A stretch of 64,000 nucleotides of DNA from Phycisphaeraceae bacterium (GTDB lineage: Bacteria > Planctomycetota > Phycisphaerae > Phycisphaerales > UBA1924): NCBI GenBank assembly GCA_019636795.1, contig JAHBWW010000003.1, forward strand, positions 186,001 through 250,000, in the 5' to 3' direction. The notes beneath the pieces were generated by a model. The model did not search any database. It was not told the DNA's origin and saw only the letters and a list, made by a program, of their open reading frames with translations. Below, one piece after another: positions 9,867 through 32,604 of the stretch; positions within the stretch are counted from its first letter, which is position 1; each line of letters opens with the position of its first letter. The position numbers and the translations under genes are program-made.

Positions 9867-11133
9867 CGCCAATCTCCGTCGAGCCGAGTCGTCGCACGCG
9901 AACCCTCCGCACCGCACGCCCACGCAACTGACTCACTTCAAGCCTCAGGCCTCCGACTTCCACAGCGTCACCCACCACTGGCATACGTCCGAGTTCGGCC
10001 TGTACCAAACCCCCGATGGTGCTCACCCGTGCCGACCCGGTCCAGGGCTCGACCTCACCGAGTTCAAGTTCTTCCGCAAAATCCCGCAATCCCAGCCGCC
10101 CAGTCACAATCCACGCGCCTTCGCCCGCCGGCCTTATGTCTCGCGCATCGGCATCACCTGATCCGATACCCGCCGCAAGTTCATCGACAATGTCGTCAAG
10201 CAGCACCATGCCGATGATCGCGCCCATTTCGTCGACGCAGTACGCACACTCCGCCGCGCGCTGCGTCAGCACACCAAGCACCTGGTCGAGCCTGGCTTGC
10301 TCCGGGACGAACACGGGAGGCAACACCATGCCACCCTTAAGACCCGCCGCAACCCGACGAACGTCGATTGTCCCGCGAACATCGTTGTGCAACTCGTCAC
10401 CGCTGATCGGAATGAACATCTGATCAGCATCGAGCACTTCTCCAATCGACCAATCTGCACGCACCCACTTCAGATCAATCCGAGGCGTCATGATTTCGCG
10501 CGCTCGCCGCAGCCGCAGTTCGAGCACGTCCTGCAGAAGCGCCTGCTCCTCAGCCGACAGGTGCAAACTCTCCATCTGCACTAGTTGGGTCAACTCGATT
10601 GTGCTCACCGACCCTGACGATTGATCGGGGTGAACCAGCCTCGACAAAGGTGCAATCACAAGCGAGTCCAGCACCGAAAGCACAGGCCACCCGATCTTGC
10701 GAAGCACATACAGGGGTCTGGCGATCATCAGGCACACCCACACACGGGCGCTTCCCGCTGCAATCTTCGCAAACACCTCGCCGAACAGAATCATCGCCAG
10801 AAGCGCAGCCCCAGTCATGATCGACGCGTGAAGCGGATCGGCAAAACGCAGCGAGAGCACCGAACTGACCGCGAAGTACGCGACGTTGATCGTCATGTTC
10901 AAAACGAGAATGAGGATCAGCAGCACGCGGGGAGAACCGAGCAGCACCCCCACGATCCGGGCGGTCGCATTTGATTGCATCGCGAGCTTTTCCCGGTCCG
11001 CAGCCGTGAGCCCGAACAGGGCCGTCTCCGAGCCTGACGCCAAGGCGGAAAGCACAAGAAGCAAGGGCAAGATCAGGAGTAATCCGTACAACTCACACCC
11101 GTTCCGGGCTTCAAGCCCGCATGACCCTATCAT
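9859..11133 (-). CDS. CNNM/DUF21-CBS-CorC domain membrane protein
   Basis: About 424 residues. The order is DUF21 transmembrane domain (LLLILPLLLVLSALASGSE...), a pair of CBS domains (beginning REIMTPRIDL, second copy VFVPEQARLDQVLGVL) and the C-terminal transporter-associated domain (GRLGLRDFAEELELG). The MTPR motif is the classic CBS entry of HlyC/CorC proteins. In this family CBS pairs bind adenine nucleotides and gate cation (Mg) transport. The start is uncertain: 11133 is the first plausible ATG but has no good ribosome site, and a TTG just before LYGLLLILP is an alternative. The 3' end overlaps its shorter paralog by 8 nt, so the two are co-translated. Confidence 0.88.
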   Translation of the reverse strand: MIGSCGLEARNGCELYGLLLILPLLLVLSALASGSETALFGLTAADREKLAMQSNATARIVGVLLGSPRVLLILILVLNMTINVAYFAVSSVLSLRFADPLHASIMTGAALLAMILFGEVFAKIAAGSARVWVCLMIARPLYVLRKIGWPVLSVLDSLVIAPLSRLVHPDQSSGSVSTIELTQLVQMESLHLSAEEQALLQDVLELRLRRAREIMTPRIDLKWVRADWSIGEVLDADQMFIPISGDELHNDVRGTIDVRRVAAGLKGGMVLPPVFVPEQARLDQVLGVLTQRAAECAYCVDEMGAIIGMVLLDDIVDELAAGIGSGDADARDIRPAGEGAWIVTGRLGLRDFAEELELGEVEPWTGSARVSTIGGLVQAELGRMPVVGDAVEVGGLRLEVSQLRGRAVRRVRVRRLGSTEIGDE

Positions 11134-11224: not shown

Positions 11225-11917
11225 GTGGCAAAGCATATCGGAATGGTTGGAATCAGCCCTGTCGGAGCGGCGTTGTGCTATCGACAACTTTTTCGACACG
11301 CAAGAGCAAATCTGCCCCCGCACGAGCATCCCGCCTTCACGATGCACTCGCTGCCGTTGCATGGCTTCCTTGAAGCGGTGCGACGCGACGACTGGCACCG
11401 CGTGGCCGCCCTCCTGCGACAGTCCGTCGACATCCTCGCCAATGCGGGCGCGCAGATCTGCTTCACCCCAGACAACATGGTTCAACACGCACTGCCCTTG
11501 ATTGCCCGCAACTCCCCGATTCCATGGATCAGCATGGCTGAAACCGTTGCCGAAACAATTTCGAAAGACGGTCGCACACTCGTCGGCATCATCGGCACCA
11601 CCATCGTGACCTCCGGCTCCACCTATCAGGCACATCTTGGGGTCAAAGGTATCAGAATCCACAAGCCTCAGCATGACGAAGCCGACACCATCCAGCGCAT
11701 CATTCTTGAGCAACTTGTTCATGGTGTGCTCGACGACGCGAGCCTCGACGCTCTGCACGCGATTGTGGTGCAGATGAAGGAACGCGGGTGTGACGCTGTG
11801 CTCTTCGGGTGCAGCGAAGCCCCACTTCTTGTGGAAAAGGGAGATTGGGCGCTCCCTGTCTACGACTCGAACGACATCGTTGCCCGAGAAGTGTTCAACC
11901 GATCAACTCAGCCCTGA
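11225..11917 (+). CDS. Aspartate/glutamate racemase-like protein with altered active site
   Basis: The 230-residue protein starts with GTG at 11225 (GGAG 7 nt upstream) and MAKHIGMVGIS, the GxxG-type opening of Asp/Glu racemases. The C-terminal catalytic Cys is present as Cys196 in GCSEAPLL. The N-terminal one is not: the usual PCN motif reads PDN (Asp83), with only an upstream Cys79 in ICFTPDN. Family members use the two thiols to (de)protonate the alpha carbon from opposite faces. With one replaced by Asp, the enzyme may prefer one direction, act as another hydrolase or isomerase, or be inactive as a racemase. It is divergent from the CNNM operon. Confidence 0.8.
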   Translation: MAKHIGMVGISPVGAALCYRQLFRHARANLPPHEHPAFTMHSLPLHGFLEAVRRDDWHRVAALLRQSVDILANAGAQICFTPDNMVQHALPLIARNSPIPWISMAETVAETISKDGRTLVGIIGTTIVTSGSTYQAHLGVKGIRIHKPQHDEADTIQRIILEQLVHGVLDDASLDALHAIVVQMKERGCDAVLFGCSEAPLLVEKGDWALPVYDSNDIVAREVFNRSTQP

Positions 11918-11938
11918 TCGAAATGAACCGGACTCGAC

Positions 11939-12376
11939 TCACTGGCTCGATTCAAGCGGGTATCCCGCCCGAGTCCACGCTTCGATTCCGCCATCGAACA
12001 TCCGCGCCCGCTTCATGCGCATCTTGAGCAGTTCCTTTGTGACACCCTTGGCCACACCACTGCCCGGGTTGGTTCCGTACACCACGATGCTGCTGTGCTG
12101 TCCGATCGCGGGGTCAACCCCAGCAGGGGCGTGAAAGTCGGCTGGGCGAAGTGAGCGGGCGGTTGGAATATGCCCCGCGTTGTAATCTGCCAGTGGCCTG
12201 GCGTCGAGCACAATGACGCGCATCGGGTCACGTTCCTTTTCGTTGAGCATCTGTCGCAGTGCAGCCACATCCACATACTGGATGTCCTTGTCCGTCACAT
12301 TGCGTTCTCCGCAACCCCCCAGAATTGCAGTGATTCCAAGACAAATTGACCCCGAAATCGGTAGAAATGACCTCAT
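11939..12376 (-). CDS. Rhodanese-like lipoprotein lacking the catalytic cysteine
   Basis: A 145-residue protein with a lipoprotein signal (lipobox LGGC, Cys22), so it is predicted to be membrane-tethered outside the cytoplasm. Residues ~32-143 form a rhodanese domain: VIVLDARPLADYNAGHIPTA is the CH2A-like motif and FDGGIEAWTRAGYPLE the characteristic end. The active-site loop after VVY reads GTNPGSG, so the sulfur-carrying Cys is replaced by Gly101. It is therefore probably a binding or regulatory rhodanese rather than a sulfurtransferase. It is transcribed divergently from the DsbD-alpha-like gene, with 91 nt between them. Confidence 0.85.
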   Translation of the reverse strand: MRSFLPISGSICLGITAILGGCGERNVTDKDIQYVDVAALRQMLNEKERDPMRVIVLDARPLADYNAGHIPTARSLRPADFHAPAGVDPAIGQHSSIVVYGTNPGSGVAKGVTKELLKMRMKRARMFDGGIEAWTRAGYPLESSQ

Positions 12377-12467: not shown

Positions 12468-13382
12468 GTGCACCCCGTACCAAACGATTCCCTCACCATG
12501 ACGAACCACATCGCCACTCTCGCCATCGCTGGTTCCCTCTTGGTTTCAACCGTGGATGCCAAGGCCAGTGTGCCTCCGTCCGACGAGGGCCCCAAAGCGA
12601 CGTTCACGCTCATTTCCGATGTGTCGCACGCCAAACCCGGAGATGTCTTCTGGATTGCAGTGCAGTTCAAGATTGAGCCAGAGTGGCATATCTACTGGCC
12701 CGGACAGAACGACACCGGCATCGCTCCGATCTTCAACTGGACTCTGCCGAGCGGCTGGAAGATCGGTCAACCGCGATGGACAGCACCGAGGCGCTACGAA
12801 ACGAATAGCGACATGCTCGACCATGTGCTCGAAGGCTCGCCTGTGATTCTTTTCCCCGTGCAGATCGCGCCGGATGCAGCGCTCGGCTCGACCCAGCAGA
12901 TCGAAGCCGACATCGAGTGGTTTGTCTGCCGCGATGTCTGCCTCGCGGAGTTCGACCAGGCTTCGCTCTCGCTGACGATCGCAGAATCCACAGTCCTTTC
13001 TCCCACAGAAGCTCGCGTCCGTGCGCACAAGGCTGCGCTTCCGGCAGCGTGGCCCGCGTCAGACGCCCCCATAGAAATCAATCGGCCAGGGGCGAACTCG
13101 TTGAGCGTGTCGAGCTCGCTCCCGGGTGTCCTGTCGTTTTATCCCGCTGCGAGTGGCCGAGGGGTGCTCGATATCGCCGAATCGTGCCAGACCCGCTCGG
13201 GCACGTTGCGCATCGAGTTCGCGTCTGAGTCGCGGGCTCCGGTCGTGGGCATCGTGCATTTTGCTGGCGACGATGGGTCGTCATACGCTTATCTGTATCG
13301 TGATCCCGTTGAGCCGGATGCTCGGCGAGACGGATTTGAGATCAGGTTGGACACCGTGAAACAAGAAGCATCAAAGGAGTGA
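12468..13382 (+). CDS. Exported DsbD-alpha-like protein
   Basis: The product has up to 304 residues. It begins with a signal-like hydrophobic stretch (IATLAIAGSLLVSTVDAKA) followed by a beta-rich domain containing WHIYWPGQNDTGIAP and WFVCRDVCLAE. These match the N-terminal domain of DsbD/ScsB-like proteins, whose two cysteines (CRDVC) pass electrons to periplasmic partners. The membrane and thioredoxin parts of DsbD are missing, so this is a stand-alone alpha domain. The GTG at 12468 has AGGGG nearby; ATG at 12498 is an alternative giving a shorter signal peptide. The exported peroxiredoxin-like gene starts 6 nt downstream, so the two form an operon. Confidence 0.8.
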   Translation: MHPVPNDSLTMTNHIATLAIAGSLLVSTVDAKASVPPSDEGPKATFTLISDVSHAKPGDVFWIAVQFKIEPEWHIYWPGQNDTGIAPIFNWTLPSGWKIGQPRWTAPRRYETNSDMLDHVLEGSPVILFPVQIAPDAALGSTQQIEADIEWFVCRDVCLAEFDQASLSLTIAESTVLSPTEARVRAHKAALPAAWPASDAPIEINRPGANSLSVSSSLPGVLSFYPAASGRGVLDIAESCQTRSGTLRIEFASESRAPVVGIVHFAGDDGSSYAYLYRDPVEPDARRDGFEIRLDTVKQEASKE

Positions 13383-13388
13383 ATCATC

Positions 13389-14150
13389 ATGAATCTGCGT
13401 ACGACGAAGATTGCTGTTCTTATTGCAGCCATGGGTATTGCCGGCACTGCCTTCGGCCAAGCCGAAGCCATCAAACCCATCACGAAAGACGCTGAAAAAC
13501 AGGTTGAGAAGATTGAGAAGAAACTCGACCAGACCGGCAAGGACATCACCAAGAGCATCGAGAAGATGAAGGCAGCCAAGAAGTTCGAGTTCGGGCAGGC
13601 TGCGCCTGAGTTCGAACTGGTCGATTCGGCCGGCAAGAAGCATGTCCTCAGCGAGTACGTCGCGGCGGGCAATGTCGTTGTGCTCGAGTGGTTCAACCCG
13701 CAATGCCCGGCAGTCGTCAAGCACTACAACGCTGAAGGCACCGGCACCACGCTCAAGATCGAGAAGGAACTGGCCAACGAAAAGGTCGTCTGGCTGCGCA
13801 TCAACTCGGGCAGCGAAGAGAGCAAGACCAGCGGCAAGGAATACACCGAGAAGGTTCGCAAGGACTGGAAGATCGCCAGCCCGGTGCTGCTCGACATGGA
13901 CGGCAAGATCGGACGCAAGTACGCCGCCCGCGTCACGCCCGAAATGTTCATCATCAACCGCGAGGGCGTGGTCGCGTATCACGGCGCGATTGACAGCGAC
14001 CCGAGCACCCGCAAGGTCGGCGACGACCTCTGGGTCCGCGACGCGGTGCGTGCGGTGATCGCCGGCGAAACCGTCGAGAAGCCCCAGACCAAGGCGGTCG
14101 GGTGCAGCATCAAGTACGCCCCCGAGAAGAAGGCCGACGCGCAGGATTGA
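13389..14150 (+). CDS. Exported redoxin (AhpC/TSA-like thioredoxin-fold) protein
   Basis: A 253-residue protein with a clean signal peptide (KIAVLIAAMGIAGTAFGQA). A Lys/Glu-rich, probably coiled-coil stretch (~residues 28-62) leads into a redoxin domain starting FGQAAPEFELVDSAGKKHVL. The single redox Cys is in WFNPQCPAVVKHY, and the cis-Pro segment is RVTPEMFIINREG. This resembles periplasmic single-Cys thioredoxin-like/AhpC proteins with NPxCP sites. The strong ribosome site AAAGGAG lies across the stop of the upstream DsbD-alpha-like gene, so they are coupled. Likely an extracytoplasmic peroxide- or disulfide-handling protein that receives electrons from its neighbour. Confidence 0.85.
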   Translation: MNLRTTKIAVLIAAMGIAGTAFGQAEAIKPITKDAEKQVEKIEKKLDQTGKDITKSIEKMKAAKKFEFGQAAPEFELVDSAGKKHVLSEYVAAGNVVVLEWFNPQCPAVVKHYNAEGTGTTLKIEKELANEKVVWLRINSGSEESKTSGKEYTEKVRKDWKIASPVLLDMDGKIGRKYAARVTPEMFIINREGVVAYHGAIDSDPSTRKVGDDLWVRDAVRAVIAGETVEKPQTKAVGCSIKYAPEKKADAQD

Positions 14151-30364: not shown

Positions 30365-30622
30365 ATGGGCAGCAGGATCCCCAGGTCGGACATGTCGAGC
30401 CTCGGCCGGGCGTGGGCGGTGGGCATGGACCTGGTGATCTATGTCATTGCGGGCGGGCTGCTCGGGTTCGGGCTTGATCTGCTGTTCAAGACGCGGCCGT
30501 GGCTGATGATCGTTGTTGCTCTGCTCGGCCTGGCGTCGGGGATGCTGCGGTTCATCCGCGAGGCGATGGTGCTCAACCGCGAAGTGACACGCAAAGCCGA
30601 GCGAGAGCGCGACGCGCGCTGA
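30365..30622 (+). CDS. atpZ: AtpZ/AtpI-type F0F1 ATPase accessory protein
   Basis: An 85-residue protein with two membrane helices, VGMDLVIYVIAGGLLGFGLDLLF and WLMIVVALLGLASGMLRFI, separated by the short turn KTRP. This fits the small AtpZ family found at the head of ATP synthase operons, which helps assembly or Mg uptake. The ATG at 30365 is preceded by GGAG. It is the first gene of the atp group and is split from atpI by an unusual repeat block. Confidence 0.8.
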   Translation: MGSRIPRSDMSSLGRAWAVGMDLVIYVIAGGLLGFGLDLLFKTRPWLMIVVALLGLASGMLRFIREAMVLNREVTRKAERERDAR

Positions 30623-31202
30623 GCGGCCGGGCACCGCACGGGCGAACCTTCGCGCGGGTCCGAAGCGTTTATTGACGGTGCCAGGGCTGAGCCGCGCAAT
30701 TTTTGCCCGCGGCGGCACTCCTCAAGAGGCCTCTGGCACTCCTCAAGAGGCCTCTCGCGCTCTTCGAGAGGCCTCTGGAACTCCTCAAGAGGCCTCTCGC
30801 GCTCTTCAAGAGGCCTCTGGAACTCCTCAAGAGGCCTCTCGCGCTCTTCGAGAGGCCTCTTGCGCTCTTCAAGAGGCCTCTTGCGCTCTTCAAGAGGCCT
30901 ACGGAACTCTTCAAGAGGCCTCCGGCACTGTCCCGCAGCACATCCCGGCAGCACCGCACCGCCCACAAACTGCCCTGCCCCGGCCCGTGGCCCTGTTGCC
31001 CGGCGGTCGGCGGCCGCAGTTCCTGACCGCAACGTTCAAGGACCTGTTTTTTCGCGTGCTGCAGACTCGCCGAACAGGCCGCAAGCCGCTATTCTTCTCG
31101 TCCCGCAGGCAGGGGTGCGCGGGGGCAGGAGCGGATTGCTTTCTGTCGCGTTCTGTTCGGGGTCTGGCGGCCGCACTGGCCGCATCGGAGCGACTTGGGG
31201 AT
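30623..31202. other. 580-nt intergenic region between atpZ and atpI
   Basis: No convincing gene is seen here. It holds the 21-nt repeat array in its first half; the rest (30925-31202) is GC-rich with no recognised promoter or RNA motif. An open frame from 30672 runs in phase into atpI, but its extra N-terminal 177 residues are repeat-derived and low complexity. Confidence 0.7.
30715..30924. repeat. Ten tandem 21-nt repeats with palindromic core in the atp operon
   Basis: Ten head-to-tail units of exactly 21 nt fit the consensus G(C/A)(A/G)CTC(C/T)TC(A/G)AGAGGCCTCT(G/C/T), with sequence drift in the last two. Each contains the palindrome AGAGGCCTCT or a close variant. Neighbouring copies can pair (GGCCTCTT with AAGAGGCC, ~9-nt loop), so the transcript would form a chain of hairpins. 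Because 21 is a multiple of three and no stop occurs, all three forward frames read through it (heptads such as SGTPQEA or LLKRPLA), but none looks like a genuine protein domain. Confidence 0.95.
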
Positions 31203-31658
31203 ATGGCTTCGCTGCTCACTGCGCCTGTGGTCAGACTCCCGCTGCGATCGGCGATCGCGTGGTCGGCCGCGCCCGGACTCTTCGCAGCTGTCGCCATAGC
31301 GATCGTCTTCAGCCTGATCCACGGCCAGAGCGGACTCGTCGGGGTCGCGCTGGCAGCCGCAGGCGTCACGGTCGGAGCCGCCGCCGGATGGGGTGTGCTC
31401 GCGGTCGGCGGCGCAAGCGCGCGATCGGCCGGAGCGTGGAGCCTCATCATTGTCTATGCTCAGGCCGCCCGCATGATGATGGCGCTGGTCATCGGCGGAG
31501 GTCTGTTCTTTCTGTTGCGCCCCGCACCAGCCGCGTTCTGGGCGACGCTGCTGGCGATGTTGCTGGCGATGCTCGCGGTTGAATCCGCGTGCTCGATCAG
31601 GTGGATCCGGGCCGCAAGCCCCAAGCCGGAGTCTGGAGTGAGGAACGTTCATGCCTGA
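31203..31658 (+). CDS. atpI: AtpI-like membrane protein of the ATP synthase operon
   Basis: A 151-residue protein with four hydrophobic segments (SAIAWSAAPGLFAAVAIAIVFSLI; GVALAAAGVTVGAAAGWGVLAVGG; SLIIVYAQAARMMMALVIGGGLFFLL; FWATLLAMLLAMLAVESACSI). The size, topology and position just before atpB fit subunit I, a non-essential assembly factor for the c-ring. The sequence itself is not diagnostic. I set the start at 31203 (GGGGAT upstream) and not at the repeat-spanning upstream start. It overlaps atpB by 8 nt. Confidence 0.7.
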   Translation: MASLLTAPVVRLPLRSAIAWSAAPGLFAAVAIAIVFSLIHGQSGLVGVALAAAGVTVGAAAGWGVLAVGGASARSAGAWSLIIVYAQAARMMMALVIGGGLFFLLRPAPAAFWATLLAMLLAMLAVESACSIRWIRAASPKPESGVRNVHA

Positions 31659-32604
31659 CGCATTTTCGGCCGTGGTCGCTGGCCTGACGCTGGGTGCCTC
31701 GAACCCGCTCGACCACGTGCTCAATCACAAGTGGATCGAAGTCAACGGGTGGATCGTGTGGTCGGCCATTCAGACCAACCTGGTCCTGACTGTCATCATC
31801 ATGCTGGTGCTCGGTTCGTGGATCGCAAAGCAGATCGCCACAGGCCCCCAGAGCGACGGGCACGATCGGTTTGTCACGCGCAATCCATTCGCGCACATGG
31901 TCGAGGTCATCTGCGTGTACCTGCGCGACAAGGTGGTTCGGCCGCTGCTGCACGAACGCACAGACGCGTTCATGCCGTTCCTCTGGACTGTCTTCTTCTT
32001 CATCCTCATCAACAACCTGCTCGGGCTGATCCCGATTCTCGACCTGATCACGCTCTTCGCCCCAGACATGGTGCAGGGCGAACACAAGGCCCCGGTCGGC
32101 GGCACCGCCACGCAGCACCTCTGGGTCACCGGTGCCCTCGCGCTGGTCGCCGGCGTCGTGATCAACATCGCCGGGCTCAAGGCGCTCGGGCCGGTCGAGT
32201 TCGTCAAGCACCTGACCGGCGGCGTGCCGTTCAAGCCAATGTACCTGCCGGTGATCGCGATCGTGTTTGCGATCGAAGTCGCGGGCATTTTCATCAAGCC
32301 GATCGCGCTGGCCATTCGTCTGTTTGCCAACATGACGGCCGGGCACACGCTGCTGGCCACTCTGGCGATGTTTGTCGGGCTGGCCTTCGCTGCCAATACG
32401 CTGCTGGTGACCGTGCCGATCACGGCGGTCTCGGCAGCCGGGATGATTGCGATCTATTTCCTGGAGATCTTCGTCGGGTTCCTTCAGGCGTTCGTGTTCA
32501 TGTTCCTCACGACGGTGTTCATCAGCCTGCTCTCGCACCACGGCGAACACGCTGAAGATCACGCTCACGACCATCACGGGCATCATGACGTTGCGCACGC
32601 GTAG
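31651..32604 (+). CDS. atpB: ATP synthase subunit a
   Basis: Subunit a forms the proton half-channels against the c-ring. The 317-residue protein contains the diagnostic helix PIALAIRLFANMTAGH, with the essential Arg at residue 223, and the earlier motif LWTVFFFILINNLLGLIP. It ends in a His-rich tail (HHGEHAEDHAHDHHGHH) that is not part of the usual family and might bind metal. The start overlaps atpI by 8 nt. Confidence 0.95.
   Translation: MPDAFSAVVAGLTLGASNPLDHVLNHKWIEVNGWIVWSAIQTNLVLTVIIMLVLGSWIAKQIATGPQSDGHDRFVTRNPFAHMVEVICVYLRDKVVRPLLHERTDAFMPFLWTVFFFILINNLLGLIPILDLITLFAPDMVQGEHKAPVGGTATQHLWVTGALALVAGVVINIAGLKALGPVEFVKHLTGGVPFKPMYLPVIAIVFAIEVAGIFIKPIALAIRLFANMTAGHTLLATLAMFVGLAFAANTLLVTVPITAVSAAGMIAIYFLEIFVGFLQAFVFMFLTTVFISLLSHHGEHAEDHAHDHHGHHDVAHA

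Follow-up and report, generated by a model that had tools for sequence, protein, structure and literature searches.

Introduction

Satellite sequences of prokaryotes have been surveyed (PMC6749651). The described repeats closest to those reported here are bacterial tandem repeats of constant size (20–21 or 52 nt) and variable sequence, which are in general non-coding and largely species-specific (PMC8161180). These arrays were collected with a search setting of at least four repeats per array. Subirana and Messeguer, the authors of that study, which cites J Bacteriol 2020 202:e00229-20, observe that 20–21 nt equals two helical turns and offer nucleoid proteins or small RNAs as guesses for the role of the repeats. 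They describe most arrays of a species as containing a characteristic short sequence and report partial conservation with length change between strains for the 52-nt kind. None of the papers compared explains why certain bacteria have several such arrays that agree in length but not in sequence. Literature on 21-bp or palindromic minisatellites and on Planctomycetes offered nothing that we judged closer by titles and abstracts.

The window analysed here is a stretch of 64,000 nt from a Phycisphaeraceae bacterium. It contains a tandem array that occupies part of the 580 nt separating atpZ from the gene in the atpI position, which atpB follows (Table 1). The middle gene is labelled only by its position and by weak similarity to the corresponding site in some relatives. 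Because the gap measures 580 nt, a transcript shared across it is only putative.

Table 1. Features of the window array and of the surrounding atp genes.
Feature	Coordinates	Strand	Basis
Tandem array, ten 21-nt units	30715..30924	.	direct reading and Tandem Repeats Finder
Eight exact palindromic cores AGAGGCCTCT, spacing 21 nt	30725..30881	.	motif count
atpZ (ATPase_gene1, PF09527), upstream neighbour	30365..30622	+	Pfam
Gene in atpI position, downstream neighbour	31203..31658	+	no Pfam match; position and weak tblastn similarity
atpB (ATP synthase subunit a, PF00119), locus finder in relatives	31651..32604	+	Pfam

Results

The window array is built from contiguous palindromic units

Tandem Repeats Finder reports the region 30714-30929 as a repeat of period 21 with 10.3 copies and 0% indels, which bears out the near-perfect head-to-tail arrangement described in the initial annotation. 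The array also fits a period of 42 (4.9 copies, 90% matches). The longer period scores above 21 because two unit types, GGAACTCCTCAAGAGGCCTCT-like and CGCGCTCTTCRAGAGGCCTCT-like, alternate in part of the array and form a 42-nt higher-order step. The units had also been called palindromic, and eight of the ten indeed carry the exact core; units 9 and 10 are variants. All eight copies of the core in the window lie inside the array, and shuffled sequences are expected to hold 0.06 copies per window. All three forward frames are open across the array, as had been noted, and one reverse frame contains nine stops. The window units diverge by 10% from their consensus, compared with 13–30% in the other 12 arrays described below.

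A search for further copies in the genome had been proposed as a check. The exact core occurs once outside the array in the whole 3.49-Mb genome, and what recurs instead is arrays of the same 21-nt period with other sequences. A 17-mer searched with up to two mismatches is found at three places outside the array, one of which is the L210 array. A REP/BIME element would be one palindrome scattered through the genome in many copies, which the single outside copy of the core does not fit, and a CRISPR, with identical repeats, is not matched by contiguous 21-nt units that have no unique spacers between them.

The array is not shared by the atp loci of relatives

atpB was located in 59 of 61 genomes (own included), and 30 loci were taken, the own locus among them. 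No 21-nt array was detected by the lag scan at any of the 29 other loci, one of which (L049) spans only ~600 nt upstream of atpB. The best lag-21 score at these loci is at most 0.71, compared with 0.89 at the window array, and the two highest (L041 and L044) fall on the atpE-aligned region. Of the 29, 20 have a recognisable atpZ and 14 a recognisable alaS, and wherever these genes were recognised they stand in the order alaS-atpZ-atpB-atpE. At the 19 loci with a usable atpZ (L043 was left out, its atpZ frame having run on into atpB), 481–753 nt separate the atpZ stop from the beginning of the atpB match, versus 1029 nt here, and the array makes up 210 nt of this extra length. The segment from the array to atpI (30925-31202) is itself long compared with the gaps of the closest relatives. 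Barring the inverted match of the array to itself, the atpZ-atpI gap is matched only weakly elsewhere in the genome (E 0.04 or worse).

Two terminator-like sites were found (0.9 expected), one at 31124-31147 and both outside the array; a search for a GC-rich hairpin followed by a T run returned neither a T run nor a terminator-like site within it. Because none of the 29 other atp loci has such an array, a feature specific to the atp locus is not supported. The suggestion that the array sets the ratio of upstream to downstream atp messages loses ground on both results, and is further weakened by the occurrence of similar arrays next to other genes, where the flanking genes may be co-directional, divergent or convergent. 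Absence in relatives with an unchanged operon structure had been named in the initial annotation as a result that would support neutral expansion, and the outcome favours turnover.

Arrays of exactly 21 nt recur in the genome and in a related genus

The genome was sampled over 1.204 Mb, comprising the window and 57 stretches of 20 kb, which is about a third of its length, and was scanned for ungapped self-identity at fixed lags. Lag 21 gives 13 rows, and lags 42 and 63 give 12 and 9. The neighbouring lags 19, 20, 22 and 23 give zero rows, both in this sample and in 0.651 Mb of G024, a genome of a related genus (AtpB 70% identical). Eight intergenic period-21 arrays with different sequences are left in the own-genome sample after removal of L110 9627 and L116 11208 (inside predicted genes) and of (AAC)n at L089 5935, with two L089 rows merged as one array and the weak L115 10218 set aside. 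G024 contains four arrays, and beyond lags 21, 42 and 63 its rows occur only at lags 9, 30 and 60. The 288,906 readable bases of G033 yielded no array, and one row in 380 kb of G036 is coding-like by eye and no clear member; both samples are too small for an absence call. The 12 intergenic arrays have 6–13 units each.

The arrays show limited kinship in sequence. L089 and L091 have ~20 nt of the unit in common, oppositely oriented; by eye, AAGAGGCCTCTTC occurs both in the window array and in L210. Within one genome, array pairs have 7-8-mers in common beyond chance (k=7: 29 versus 6.6, sd 3.2), which hints at exchange between arrays or at a common reader. No 6-mer is present in more than three of the eight own-genome arrays, which is within the null, and no 6-8-mer is present in most arrays. 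Identity at lag 42 exceeds that at lag 21 in 10 of 13 arrays. Since the other arrays differ in sequence, a methylase or other protein reading AGAGGCCTCT, as had been proposed, is unlikely to explain the class.

The sequence of the window array has no match in phages or plasmids and none in 60 related genomes. Among 400 genomes of the order (own included), the search returned the own array and, in the related genus G313, two matches that overlap within one array. This four-unit array (L071) resembles the window array and is the nearest to it in sequence outside the own genome. When 2 kb of G313 was queried with alaS, atpZ, atpI, atpB and atpE, only a 24-residue atpZ match was obtained (E 0.003), which suggests that the G313 array probably does not lie at the atp locus. 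The array, at L071:433-580, is preceded by an ATG and looks by eye like a short ORF of RPLEEF-like heptads, which is probably a by-product.

An exact two-unit pattern matched six stretches in genome_contigs, of which five are by eye two-copy terminator-looking hairpins. The sixth, L014, is from a Myxococcales MAG and holds a GC-rich 21-nt array at the contig end, with ~12 GC-rich 21-nt units like GCCTCCGAGGGGCCCTGAGAG at L014:2889-3160. It was reached through the palindromic pattern and possibly represents the same class in another phylum. In viral_contigs, five stretches matched, by eye four two-copy hairpins and a coding-looking repeat (L019). All seven Rfam matches are sub-threshold.

Two further kinds of repeat were observed in the own genome. 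A dispersed element around AGAGCCATGGCCAC has eight exact copies; its places include L091:17407 and 19023, L092:149, L203:6564 and L207:15654, with a shorter variant at L110:10394, and CTGATCGTGGCCA precedes AGAGCCATGGCCAC at four of the six places seen. Two of the 21-nt arrays have it close by: a copy stands ~140 nt ahead of the L091 array, and the shorter variant ~110 nt ahead of that in L110. L116 carries three arrays with 117-120-nt units and GGGCGTTGGGGGTT-like stretches within 3.5 kb (10194-10527, 11789-12095 and 13320-13697); the scan of 804 kb showed no others with this period.

Unit length is held while the sequence changes

Across 13 arrays and 120 units, at least 231 substitutions were counted (distinct letters per column minus one, a lower bound), with no register shift inside the arrays. 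The choice of arrays by ungapped lag-21 identity biases this count towards no shift; a long shifted half would show as a second row. In several cases, unit-like sequence directly flanks an array in register, and out-of-register matches occur at about the background rate.

The arrays are mostly intergenic and show no coding constraint

Eleven of the 12 arrays overlap no predicted gene, and the remaining one (L121) overlaps a weak ORF; non-gene DNA makes up 16.3% and 19.8% of the samples. The gene caller behind these figures is home-made, codon-usage based and crude, and leaves 3.5 kb (L200) and 2.1 kb (L120) geneless beside the arrays; at L091, the stretch ends right of the array. The neighbouring genes are co-directional (e.g. 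the window array, L110 and L115), divergent (L122 and L153) or convergent (L202 and L210). Because the arrays occupy gaps of every orientation, no single transcriptional role fits. The gene beside the L089 array is, we assume, miaB, and no array is present at this gene in five relatives.

Observed substitutions were compared with randomly placed ones in all six frames of 13 arrays. Only one of the 78 tests for synonymous excess gave p<0.05 (L115, frame +0, p 0.03), and the window array shows no such excess in any of its six frames. A unit length divisible by three would yield heptad peptides as a by-product, which is therefore their most likely origin. Coding heptads had been attractive for the RPLEE-like reading on the minus strand of the window array and in G313, and were dropped on these frame tests.

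Dyad symmetry resides mainly in the consensus

The circular 21-mer of each array was folded about its best axis and compared with column permutations. The resulting z is above zero in 12 of 13 arrays and singly significant (p<0.05) in five, and an arm test gives p<0.05 in eight of 13. The symmetry is clear in the window array (z 2.8, p 0.01), L200 (4.0), L210 (3.5), L120 (2.5) and L071 (2.4), and weak or absent in L115 (0.8) and L153 (-1.0). Palindromes were part of the reason why the initial annotation singled out the window array, and a pattern derived from it led to the G313 array. The 11 arrays found by period alone have a mean z of 1.61. By comparison, 350 intergenic 21-mers average 0.01 (Mann-Whitney p 5e-5), and 10 tandem arrays with periods other than 21 nt average -0.38 (p 0.003). 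With the window and G313 arrays included, the mean over the 13 is 1.76, versus 0.05 for 400 random genomic 21-mers. No word beginning with palindrom, hairpin or symmetry occurs in the main text of PMC8161180. Dyad symmetry of the 20–21-nt class was not met in the literature compared, and we do not claim novelty for it.

The expectation in the initial annotation that the mRNA would fold into serial hairpins agrees with a strong predicted fold of the window array (-127.2 kcal/mol, z -6.8 versus dinucleotide shuffles). Its first eight units fold better than column-permuted (p 0.007) and block-permuted (p 0.027) versions. With up to eight units per array and the in-gene L116 array counted in, fold energy is below the column-permuted mean in 13 of 14 arrays; six reach p<0.05, versus four by block permutation.

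Covariation among units gives a different picture. At distances 4–20, there is no excess pairing (1013 cells versus 1030 by shuffle among units), and 41 compensated cells were counted versus 43.6 expected. The result is similar at distances 21–41 (1058 versus 1068) and 42–62 (913 versus 924), and the only single tests that are positive are L153 (p 0.005), L091 for compensated cells (p 0.028) and L110 at 42–62. The symmetry thus belongs mainly to the consensus, and one-sided mutations go unrepaired. This lack of overall covariation favours a palindromic founder and weakens the case for selected hairpins, which the fold and symmetry tests had made attractive; it may also be compatible with a protein that tolerates many sequences.

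Discussion

On balance, we favour the reading that the window array belongs to a genome-wide, non-coding intergenic class in which the unit is fixed at 21 nt, the sequence differs by locus and the arrays arise by amplification of a palindromic seed. The shared period, the differing sequences, the mostly intergenic placement, the lack of coding constraint and of register shifts, the dyad symmetry of the units as a class and the absence in relatives at the two loci tested together form its basis. Each array would start locally, when a palindromic stretch is duplicated, and would then grow in whole units by slippage or unequal exchange. A growth step that is often 42 nt would produce the A/B alternation of units, the step would be locked at two helical turns, and the array would soon be lost or replaced. 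A symmetry inherited from the founder would predict the lack of compensatory excess, and the array can be accounted for without an ATP synthase-specific role. We are not aware of a mutational process whose step is exactly 21 nt, and selection explains the 21-nt step equally well.

One form of such selection, which we regard as possible if rather doubtful, is a DNA lattice: a dimeric protein, of the nucleoid or otherwise, would read spacing more than sequence, with two turns per unit and, by geometry, dyads every 10.5 bp. This proposal is consistent with a length that stays fixed while the sequence drifts, with a dyad symmetry that, of the arrays tested, only the 21-nt class shows, and with the placement of arrays in gaps of every gene orientation; a similar suggestion was made for the published class (PMC8161180), whose sizes of 20–21 and 52 nt by our arithmetic approximate two and five turns. 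It is harder to reconcile with arrays that have no common motif, as the 6-mer counts within the null indicate, and that are not kept in relatives at the two loci tested. A more specific version, in which we have little confidence, is that an abundant dimeric chromosome protein polymerises on any 10.5-bp dyad lattice, with length and dyad symmetry rather than sequence as the signal. If the lattice were true, new arrays born from any palindrome would still work, and the 52-nt kind would follow the same principle.

An RNA element of the atp operon is unlikely; its serial hairpins would act on the mRNA where atpZ gives way to the genes downstream, through attenuation, stabilisation or processing. 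The strong predicted fold, with an energy below that of column-permuted arrays, argues for it; an array free of T runs and of terminator-like sites, Rfam matches that stay sub-threshold, the lack of overall covariation at three ranges of pairing distance, the absence in the relatives examined and the occurrence of the class in unrelated contexts all argue against it. That the array encodes a heptad-repeat peptide (e.g. RPLEERE/RPLEEFQ on the minus strand) seems highly improbable. A unit of 21 nt is a multiple of three, several frames are open, and the G313 array after its ATG reads as RPLEEF-like by eye; however, the synonymous-excess tests give no such signal in the window array, the corresponding frame contains stops in L091, which has its unit in common with L089, and nearly all arrays lie outside predicted genes. 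Equally little speaks for an ordinary young minisatellite in which 21 nt is accidental and no fixed-length class stands behind it. Absence in the relatives examined and the low divergence of the window units fit such an origin, but the period recurs at eight loci in a third of the genome and at four in G024 with neighbouring lags empty, and the other 12 arrays are 13–30% diverged. The minisatellite of the initial annotation is close to the truth, and it is the bare accidental version that the recurrence at these loci disfavours. The length lock, the dyad symmetry and the missing compensatory excess narrow the choice and speak against coding and against selected RNA hairpins. The choices that remain are a birth process locked in its spacing, as in the favoured amplification of a palindromic seed, and a protein that reads spacing.

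Comparison with known repeat systems

REP palindromes are extragenic and palindromic, as are the arrays here, and measure 20–40 bp (PMC3733652). They are high-copy and dispersed, whereas the core of the window array is confined to one array and one single copy. Borg tandem repeats are of independent origin, turn over fast and are about half intergenic, with one 20–21-nt intergenic example (PMC9879509). Unlike the arrays here, which have one length and are 10–30% diverged, they consist of perfect copies, are A-rich and occur in many lengths.

The 52-nt Bacillus repeats are alike in fixed length and free sequence, and often contain short characteristic sequences together with their reverse within one repeat (PMC8161180). 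They differ in that 52 nt is not a multiple of three and that they are reported only from Firmicutes. By our own arithmetic, 52 nt approximates five helical turns of 10.5 bp as 20–21 nt approximates two; the paper states only the latter. Partial conservation between strains is reported for the 52-nt kind; the comparison here is between genera, and the 21-nt arrays differ at the two loci examined (atp and miaB).

The constant-size 20–21-nt repeats are the nearest system, with a fixed unit, several unrelated sequences per genome and mostly non-coding positions (PMC8161180). Against the published minimum of four repeats, the window array has ten units and the intergenic arrays 6–13. Size is constant, with lag 21 populated and neighbouring sizes empty in both genomes. 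Sequence varies by array, with families (L089/L091; window/L210), and placement is largely outside predicted genes (11 of 12), matching the generally non-coding published class. Compared with the characteristic short sequence of most arrays in a species, the 7-8-mers found here join pairs of arrays and none spans most of them. The arrays here come from a different lineage, and their dyad symmetry, lack of register shift and lack of covariation are measured in this work. The window array is a member of this published, unexplained class of constant size and variable sequence.
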